From Nitzschia sp. pyKryTriq1 (taxonomy: Eukaryota; Bacillariophyta; Bacillariophyceae; Bacillariales; Bacillariaceae), in NCBI GenBank assembly GCA_956465555.1, contig OY101122.1, positions 755,001 through 819,000 of the forward strand: 64,000 bases of DNA, in the 5' to 3' direction. The notes under the pieces are model-generated. The model ran no database searches and was not told the DNA's origin. It worked only from the letters and a program-made list of their open reading frames with translations. This document shows positions 1,793 through 60,807 of this stretch, piece by piece (the first letter of the stretch is position 1; every line of letters begins with the position of its first letter). The translations under genes and the position numbers were made by a program.

Positions 1793-3400
1793 CTACCGTG
1801 CAGGATCTGTGGTTTCTAGAGCATCCAGTTCTGGATCTCCGTCGACTATTGCTGTCCCTTTCTCTGCCTCTTCATCCCTCCGCGCAGTGGAATCAAGGGG
1901 CATGCTTGTCATGGTAGATATTCTTTTCGTTGCATTCTTTGCTTCCTTCTCCCAGGAAATGCGGAATTTCAAGACCAAGACGCCAATGATGCTTGCACTA
2001 TAGATCCCAAGAACGTACCCCCACCACAAGCCAGCAACTCCTGAATTGCCCACAAATGTTAGAAGGGCGCCAACTGGGATTGCCAATACCCAAAATGCCA
2101 ACATATTGAGGTAAAGTACCATCCGTTGGCGGCCTAGCCCTCTCATGACACCCCCAACCGTCGCTTGTGCCGCATCACCCATCATGAAGACGCAGGAGAT
2201 AGGAATAAGCGTCGAAACGAGTTCAGCAACCTCGTCATCGCTGCTGAACGCTTTTCCAAGCCAGTCCTTACAGGGTAGTACAATTGCAATGAGAGCCAGT
2301 TGGACACCAGTAGCCAGCAAGAAGGAGACGAGTGATGACCGTCGTGCATTCTCGATGCTTCCCTCTCCCATCCATTGGCCGACACGGATTGACGCAGCGA
2401 TCCCGATGGCAAAAGGAAAACTGAGAAAGATGAAAGTAGCAATACTCAATGTGATGATATGTGCATCCAACGCGACGGTACCAAGCAAACCAGCTAGTAT
2501 GGTTGCTATCTCAAAGGACCATGCTTCCGCAGAAATCGATAGCGCCCCAGAAAATGCCAGTTTACAAAACGGACCCAAGGTCTTCAAATTCCACACTTGA
2601 CGAGAAATTGTAGGCCAAGTTGACTCAATTTTTTCGGAATGGCGGTTCCAATAAATGTAGCACACAATGCCGATGAACTCAAGGAATCGCGTGATGGTAG
2701 TTGCCCAAGGAGCACCATTTAGGCCCATGCCCAACGCATAGATCAATGACCAATTGAAGAGAATGTTCACGCCATTTGCCCACAGGCCAAGCCAGACCCC
2801 TGGCATGACAATTCTCTGCGACTGCAAGTATTTTACTAATACCTTGAAAGCGTAATACGGGAACAGACCCGGTATTAGACGATAGGAGAATTGACCAGCC
2901 GCATCCGCCAGCGCGTCGTCTTGGCCAAATAACTTCATGGCTGGACCGCACAAAGCGAGGAGGCCAGAGACAAATACTGTGACGATCATAACGATGGCTA
3001 ATCCAGACCCAGCCCACATTCCGTAAGCTTTGAGCTCCTTGGCCCCGTGTGCTTGCGCCAAGAAAGTATCAATCGCAGTGTTGAAGCCCAACATTGTGGA
3101 ATTCCAAAGGTTGAACCACACAGTTGCTAAGGCTGCTGCTGCCAAGTCATTTTTATCAGGAAGGTTCCCAACGAAGGCAATGTCTACCACCGGCAGCGTA
3201 TTCTGAAAAATTTCTGACATGATGATCGGACCAGTCAATAACACCACATCATGCAGGTGCTCTTTGTAGGAGCGAATCGCTGATGCAGCAGTCCTCGCTG
3301 GGGTGGTTTCCTGTTCCGACTCCTCGCCCTCCTCTGATGATGAGGCGGCTTTTTCGACCATGGTTTCAAGAGATTTTCGTGTGTGAGTTGGATAATTCAT
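1793..3400 (-). CDS. MATE family efflux transporter
   Basis: A single uninterrupted frame of 535 residues starts at the ATG at 3400; a second ATG at 3361 (residue 14) is also possible. The first 40 residues are acidic and Ser/Glu-rich. About twelve hydrophobic segments follow, with the MATE features LLTGPIIMSEIFQNTLPVVD near residue 55 and an N/F-rich second segment (FNLWNSTMLGFNTAIDTFLAQA). The two similar halves begin near residues 50 and 285. MATE proteins are cation- or proton-coupled antiporters exporting organic cations and xenobiotics, or moving them into vacuoles. The acidic C-terminal tail is probably cytosolic. The gene is convergent with the sugar transporter at its 3' end. The substrate is unknown. 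Confidence 0.9.
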   Translation of the reverse strand: MNYPTHTRKSLETMVEKAASSSEEGEESEQETTPARTAASAIRSYKEHLHDVVLLTGPIIMSEIFQNTLPVVDIAFVGNLPDKNDLAAAALATVWFNLWNSTMLGFNTAIDTFLAQAHGAKELKAYGMWAGSGLAIVMIVTVFVSGLLALCGPAMKLFGQDDALADAAGQFSYRLIPGLFPYYAFKVLVKYLQSQRIVMPGVWLGLWANGVNILFNWSLIYALGMGLNGAPWATTITRFLEFIGIVCYIYWNRHSEKIESTWPTISRQVWNLKTLGPFCKLAFSGALSISAEAWSFEIATILAGLLGTVALDAHIITLSIATFIFLSFPFAIGIAASIRVGQWMGEGSIENARRSSLVSFLLATGVQLALIAIVLPCKDWLGKAFSSDDEVAELVSTLIPISCVFMMGDAAQATVGGVMRGLGRQRMVLYLNMLAFWVLAIPVGALLTFVGNSGVAGLWWGYVLGIYSASIIGVLVLKFRISWEKEAKNATKRISTMTSMPLDSTARRDEEAEKGTAIVDGDPELDALETTDPAR

Positions 3401-59895: not shown

Positions 59896-60420
59896 CTCGG
59901 GTCTTCTTTTATGTTTTATGGGAGGATTTAGAGATAGAATATAGCTGAAGTCACAAGTCGATTTTCAACGAAGGGAAAAGCGGAAATGCGAAGTATGCGA
60001 TACTAATAAAAATTTCGCACGTTTCGACATCCACGACTCCGAATCAATCCCGCGAAACATGTAACGTGGCGGGAAAATAATCTGCGGATGACGATGGACG
60101 ACGGACGACGAACGACGAACCCAAAGTTCCATGCTGCATGACGATGACGAATGACGATGACAATGATGTGGGATGTGGGATGGGGATGAAATGAATGATG
60201 GAAATGTCTCATGTCTCCTTCTCTCTTTTGGAAGTTCTGTCTCATTCCTACCTCAGAGATTGTGATCGAGGAAACCCGTGTTCATATTTTATCTTCAGAA
60301 TTGTTTCATTGAACAGCCGCTTTCATCGGTCCCCTGGAATTTCTTCATTGCATCCGACAAACCAAAAGCGCTTCATCTTTTTCGAACCACAAACATCGTT
60401 GAATACTCTATGTCATCAGA
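59896..60420. other. Divergent promoter region
   Basis: About 525 bases between divergent starts, including GATGACGATG/ACGACGAACGACG simple repeats at 60090-60165. No gene is supported. Confidence 0.5.
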
Positions 60421-60807
60421 ATGTTTCAACGGACACTAGTTTGTCTCAGAAAGGCTCAGATTACGATACCCCAGCTGAGCCCCACTCACTCGCGGGCCAA
60501 AATTGTCAAGTGGTGCGTGGATGCATCCTCGACCACATCATCAGTGGAATCGTATGATCCTCTATTCATAGTGCAATGTTCGCCTGATTTGGTGACAGAA
60601 GGATTCCGAAAATCTACAAACCATGAACCATTGATGATAGTAGAGGCCCACGATGAAGGGAAACTATCATTGAAAGACGGCATTGAGATGGACAAGTGGT
60701 ACGACGTTGGAACGGAAATCGGTGAAATTGACGATGGCGACGACGACTTTGAGGATGATGGCGAATGGCTGTGGCAAGCATATTCGCACGAAGAAGAGGG
60801 GGGATAG
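60421..60807 (+). CDS. Lipoyl/biotinyl-domain-like protein lacking the attachment site, mitochondrial-type presequence
   Basis: The intronless frame encodes 128 residues from the ATG at 60421. Residues 1-13 (MFQRTLVCLRKAQ) look like a short mitochondrial presequence. The strand pattern of a 2-oxoacid-dehydrogenase E2 lipoyl domain follows. ITIPQLSPTHSRAKIVKW at 14-31 matches the E2 start I-x-M-P-x-L-S-P-T...G-x-I-x-x-W; SYDPLFIVQ at 44-52 matches the strand before the lipoyl turn; EPLMIVEAHDEGKLSLKDGI at 69-88 and YDVGTEIGEI at 94-103 match the second half. The DKA turn that carries lipoyl-lysine is absent and replaced by a loop of about 17 residues (CSPDLVTEGFRKSTNHE). The tail is acidic. 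It cannot be lipoylated in the normal way. It is convergent with the ankyrin gene, 83 bases away. Confidence 0.6.
   Translation: MFQRTLVCLRKAQITIPQLSPTHSRAKIVKWCVDASSTTSSVESYDPLFIVQCSPDLVTEGFRKSTNHEPLMIVEAHDEGKLSLKDGIEMDKWYDVGTEIGEIDDGDDDFEDDGEWLWQAYSHEEEGG

Follow-up and report, generated by a model that had tools for sequence, protein, structure and literature searches.

A small diatom protein with a weak likeness to E2 lipoyl domains and no lysine at the lipoyl turn

The lipoyl domains of E2 proteins are recognised by the lysine that bears the cofactor. E1 and E3 visit these domains, and the PDH kinases bind them. Terms such as 'pseudo-lipoyl' return no paper in the literature searched, and among the matches listed no title or beginning of an abstract describes a stand-alone lipoyl protein lacking the lysine, which does not prove that such a protein is absent from print. 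In humans, binding of lipoyl domains by the PDK-type kinases is described in a paper that also gives the domains of human E3BP: one lipoyl, one E3-binding and one catalytic but inactive (PMC5322387).

The window analysed here is the 64,000-nucleotide stretch C8:755001-819000 of the Nitzschia sp. pyKryTriq1 genome, where C8 denotes the contig. On its forward strand an uninterrupted frame runs from the ATG at 60421 to the TAG ending at 60807 and encodes, in a single exon, 128 amino acids followed by a stop. The original prediction described this 128-residue protein as a lipoyl-domain fold without the lipoylation site; the frame proved intact, and every segment that had been quoted is present in the protein. 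The ORF is coding-like and single copy. For comparison, 16 long ORFs in the same window supplied 54 coding pieces; the codon score of the ORF, 0.054 per codon, equals their median, and only 2 of 270 wrong-frame pieces outscore it. Restricted to synonymous codons, the score is -0.003; this falls above the 5th but below the 25th percentile for coding pieces and is uninformative, so the coding signal stems mostly from the amino-acid composition. Searches of the 40.65 Mb genome (20 contigs) with the whole protein and with its core, both single-protein searches in which only the best candidates were scored, gave no second copy. A nine-codon frame starting at an upstream ATG (60410-60439) is out of frame with the ORF and overlaps its start. 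An upstream exon was rejected, as 60000-60460 holds just two donor-like sites of the GTxxG type, both far upstream.

None of the neighbouring genes is indicative of function. The divergent upstream neighbour encodes a TPM-domain/RING protein, the gene for ribosomal protein L3 lies further upstream, and the downstream neighbour is a convergent ankyrin-repeat ORF whose stop is found 83 bp past that of the ORF studied here. The silicon-transporter family is matched eight times in the genome, which marks it as that of a diatom; seven of these matches have E < 1e-261 and the eighth has 2.4e-134.

The part of the protein that aligns to a lipoyl profile comprises residues 13-104 of the 128, and the features are laid out as follows:

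60421..60456, + strand: residues 1-12, basic N-terminus (+3), possibly a very short mitochondrial presequence (charge and moment computation)
60457..60525, + strand: residues 13-35 (QITIPQLSPTHSRAKIVKWCVDA), corresponding to the initial strands of an E2 lipoyl domain and strongest portion of the match (profile alignments)
60547..60576, + strand: residues 43-52 (ESYDPLFIVQ), corresponding to the strand that precedes the lipoyl turn (alignments)
60577..60630, + strand: residues 53-70, a lengthened loop where E2 has the DKA turn, with K64 as its sole lysine (alignments)
60634..60669, + strand: residues 72-83 (MIVEAHDEGKLS), corresponding to the strand plus Gly turn that come past the lipoyl lysine (profile alignments)
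60697..60732, + strand: residues 93-104 (WYDVGTEIGEID), corresponding to the final lipoyl strand, which includes the conserved Gly (profile alignments)
60733..60804, + strand: residues 105-128, acidic tail with a net charge of -11, containing EWLWQAY (composition)

The tail is acidic, as had been claimed. The first 12 residues are basic, but their mitochondrial character is not confirmed, a helical moment as high as their 0.52 occurring in 19% of shuffles. Plastid targeting was rejected because the N-terminus, inspected by eye, has no stretch resembling a signal peptide.

The likeness to lipoyl domains was measured with a profile, A1, made from eight E2 lipoyl domains of the same diatom genome. 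A1 behaves as expected of lipoyl domains: at E <= 0.001 it matches 76 distinct sequences of the PDB, and among the best 60 of these 76 the E2 chains come at the top and biotin domains lower. In hmmsearch the protein reaches 15.7 bits, which in a set of 5513 sequences amounts to E 0.003, against 10.3 bits for the best of 5000 shuffles; most of the signal lies in residues 13-36. In hhalign the whole protein aligns collinearly with A1 over residues 13-110 (78 columns, P 78.6%, E 1.7e-5), and its score of 32.8 is attained by 0 of 1000 shuffles (best 23.3). The 509 remaining window ORFs no shorter than 60 amino acids score 16.7 at best. When parts of the protein are aligned alone, the core (13-104) scores 25.7 (P 43%) and residues 1-60 score 24.9 (P 50%), while residues 41-128 score 20.0 (P 9%), which is under the best shuffle. 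Fifty distinct bacterial lipoyl domains, none from the Nitzschia genome, make up another profile, which puts the protein in the same register as A1 but more weakly: 14.1 bits in hmmsearch (E 0.0083; best of 5000 shuffles 0.2) and, in hhalign, P 31.4% with E 5.1e-4 (best of 500 shuffles 9.4e-4). In hhalign this profile, itself collected by means of A1, is barely above its shuffles. The best identity to seven aligned lipoyl domains of the same genome is 30%.

Judged by these profiles, the likeness to a PDH-type lipoyl domain is measurable but weak, and for the PDH-type lipoyl family alone the lipoyl-like order of the segments is above chance expectation. This family was chosen post hoc, however, and the E-values are not compelling once corrected for the many families that a reader could recognise. 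When these other families are allowed for, homology to lipoyl domains looks somewhat better than an even bet.

The curated libraries contribute little. No Pfam family matches the protein at E <= 10, and it falls below the PF00364 cut-off, the ORF being absent from the 18 PF00364 places of the genome. The two matches found by phmmer in the PDB are not lipoyl chains, and the single, weak match in NCBIfam (E 0.24) is to the start of the PDH E1-beta model, a portion that we take to be the lipoyl domain of that model. AlphaFold, given the single sequence without an alignment, returned a mean pLDDT of 37.2 and a pTM of 0.24 for the whole protein, and 33.7 and 0.19 for the core (13-105), so that the structure prediction put forward earlier as a check produced no confident fold of any kind. 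The whole-protein model places strands at 27-33, 47-53, 72-76, 82-84 and 93-95, and one at 5-10 outside the domain; these places would be compatible with a lipoyl fold, yet are untrustworthy at pLDDT < 40. The claim that the protein reproduces the strand order of an E2 lipoyl domain holds for the order of the segments, which beats shuffles in both hmmsearch and hhalign; the fold is not confirmed.

It is quite possible, if somewhat less likely than the lipoyl reading, that this is an unrelated lineage-specific small protein in which the N-terminal ITIPQLSPT..IVKW resembles E2 by chance. About 25 residues hold most of the profile score, the protein was selected for looking like a lipoyl domain, and neither a curated Pfam match nor an AlphaFold fold speaks against such an origin. 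On the other hand, the remaining sequence aligns in the correct order with both later glycines present, and the full-length hhalign score is matched by none of the 1000 shuffles and by none of the 509 other ORFs of the window.

The protein departs from E2 at the lipoyl turn. Two of the five columns that are invariant in A1 are kept (G80 and G97), while the first-turn Gly is replaced by S36, the Asp by H68 and the Lys by E69. Between the strands that flank the turn there are about 14 extra residues (53-66), and the alignments thus bear out that the lipoylation site has given way to a longer loop. An intron inside the loop was rejected, as none of the three donor-like sites within the ORF lies where the loop begins. 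If the protein has a lipoyl fold, its lipoylation is very unlikely. The statement that no E3-binding or catalytic domain accompanies the protein also agrees with the genome-wide matches: the five matches to the E2 catalytic domain (PF00198) are on C1 (two), C6, C7 and C14, and all five to the E3-binding domain (PF02817) are likewise on contigs other than C8.

Lineage-specific subunits of mitochondrial assemblies are often structural, and bacterial membrane-fusion proteins use a lipoyl-type fold with an insertion at the lipoyl turn. One reading is that the protein is a lipoyl-fold structural subunit of some other mitochondrial assembly, unconnected with the 2-oxoacid dehydrogenases; the loss of the lysine and the added loop and tail would suit a use of the fold as scaffold, and the insertion parallels that of the membrane-fusion proteins. 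We regard this as unlikely, and the one diatom complex I study consulted names three extra proteins of which none is lipoyl-like (PMC12854811).

That the ORF is a decaying fragment of an E2 or E3BP gene, as the lost lysine and the lack of attached E2 domains could suggest, is improbable given that the frame is open with its own start and stop, that the codon score is coding-like and that there is no close E2 parent, none of the seven aligned lipoyl domains of the genome exceeding 30% identity. Lipoylation of K64, the only lysine that the loop offers, is highly improbable, as it lies five residues ahead of E69, the residue aligned with the E2 lipoyl lysine, and the lipoylating enzymes need an exact lipoyl turn.

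Relatives were sought in viral contigs and prokaryote genomes. Peptide patterns of the protein gave 7 matches in the former and 16 in the latter, none of which tblastn confirmed, while its degenerate DNA patterns gave 0 in viral contigs and 11 bacterial stretches in the prokaryote genomes. A lipoyl profile query in the viral contigs resulted in 55 pattern matches and 0 confirmed, and two lipoyl DNA patterns picked 0 and 11 stretches there. The lipoyl profile has no match at E <= 1 in the 22 stretches (11 bacterial and 11 from viral contigs), and the best tblastn matches of the protein had E 0.002 over 38 residues (L028) and 0.005 over 21 (L026); being short, weak and overlapping the stretch used for picking, these two were not counted as relatives. 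The viral contigs and prokaryote genomes scanned thus contain no confirmed relative or orthologue.

The 18 PF00364 places of the genome allow a comparison with clear lipoyl domains. In 16 of them a lysine is found, read by eye, at the modified turn; the exceptions are L017 (C1:4475016-4475651) and L018 (C3:3337657-3338292). These two loci of 3222 bases are identical at 3210 and share the same 212-residue open frame. The protein has 204 amino acids counted from the first ATG and a basic, presequence-like N-terminus (by eye). Pfam recognises a lipoyl domain in residues 116-189 (31.7 bits, E 1.4e-7), and the best PDB match of this domain is the PDH E2 chain 6ct0 (E 4.7e-9), presumably the human one. 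QDF stands in place of the DKA of E2, and the genome-wide profile matches include no E2 catalytic domain (PF00198) near either locus. Going by these matches, a stand-alone lipoyl domain without the lysine does exist in the Nitzschia sp. genome, and it is a firmer case than the protein of the window. Each locus lies some 270 kb short of the high-coordinate end of its contig, and this matching distance together with the near-identity suggests that they arose by segmental duplication. BLASTP detects no significant similarity between their lipoyl domain and the protein of the window, so the two need not form one family.

Two of the 16 places with the lysine deserve mention. L016 (C1:2593223-2593360) is a lipoyl domain with DKV; within about 0.5 kb downstream, a frame encodes a linker and a C-terminus weakly resembling Kgd4/YMR-31 (PF10937; E 0.051, 15.6 bits where the cut-off is 22), and no E2 catalytic match is found nearby. 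It may be a lipoyl-bearing protein that recruits E3 to the 2-oxoglutarate dehydrogenase complex. L013 (C12:967412-967633) combines a lipoyl domain with DKA, a Pro/Ala linker and a short tail; inspected by eye, the tail is similar to an E3-binding domain in degenerate form, although Pfam recognises the lipoyl domain only. As C12 has neither a PF00198 nor a PF02817 match, L013 is a candidate E3BP without the catalytic domain.

The best single reading of the 128-residue protein is a stand-alone lipoyl-like protein without the lysine, for which the profile support is weak to moderate. The fuller form of this reading, a divergent E2-derived lipoyl-type domain that cannot be lipoylated and serves as a binding-only accessory, is tentative, and we give it a probability of roughly 0.4. 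The original observation is thereby partly confirmed, and its interpretation is partly supported and plausible but weak. Fold, location, partner and role are what we infer for the protein, as is the function as decoy or regulator first proposed for it. The gene would encode a divergent barrel-sandwich hybrid domain descended from a 2-oxoacid dehydrogenase E2, in which the lipoyl-lysine turn has been swapped for a longer loop. Such a domain could carry neither lipoate nor acyl groups nor electrons, and it would then act through binding alone, as a small and probably mitochondrial accessory docking at the sites for lipoyl domains on E1, E3 or a PDK-type kinase. A soluble, non-modifiable protein of this kind could anchor, mask or titrate its partner.

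With three matches to the PDK/BCKDK kinase domain in the genome, a possible partner exists. In the human work the strongest activator of PDK1 is the free E2 tridomain L1L2S, while free lipoyl domains elicit little response from PDK3 and PDK4, and the domains employed in the binding assays were lipoylated (PMC5322387); kinase binding by a domain without the lysine is thus putative. A wider idea, speculative and rather unlikely in our estimate, is that diatoms hold at least two unrelated-looking stand-alone lipoyl-fold proteins without the lysine, the present one and that of L017/L018, as binding modules controlling 2-oxoacid dehydrogenase complexes, for example by taking up sites on PDK, E1 or E3 with no part in acyl transfer. 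If this is true, free-standing lysine-less copies of the lipoyl domain would regulate central carbon metabolism in the style of pseudo-enzymes, and would do so in algae of major ecological weight. L017/L018 lets the idea be tested directly even should the protein of the window prove unrelated.

With the lipoyl domain of mitochondrial and plastid PDH E2 (PF00364) the protein shares the order of the segments, the xPxLSPT start, two conserved glycines and, apart from the loop, the length of the domain. It differs in lacking the D-K at the turn and the first conserved Gly, in its insertion of about 14 residues, in being below Pfam detection and in having no PSBD or catalytic match on its contig. 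The L017/L018 protein likewise stands alone, without the turn lysine and with an N-terminus that is basic by eye, but it has a clear Pfam match, a long N-terminal region and a turn without the long insertion. E3BP/PDHX has in common with the protein the idea of a non-catalytic accessory bearing a lipoyl domain, while the E3-binding and inactive catalytic domains of human E3BP (PMC5322387) are not found with the protein on C8.
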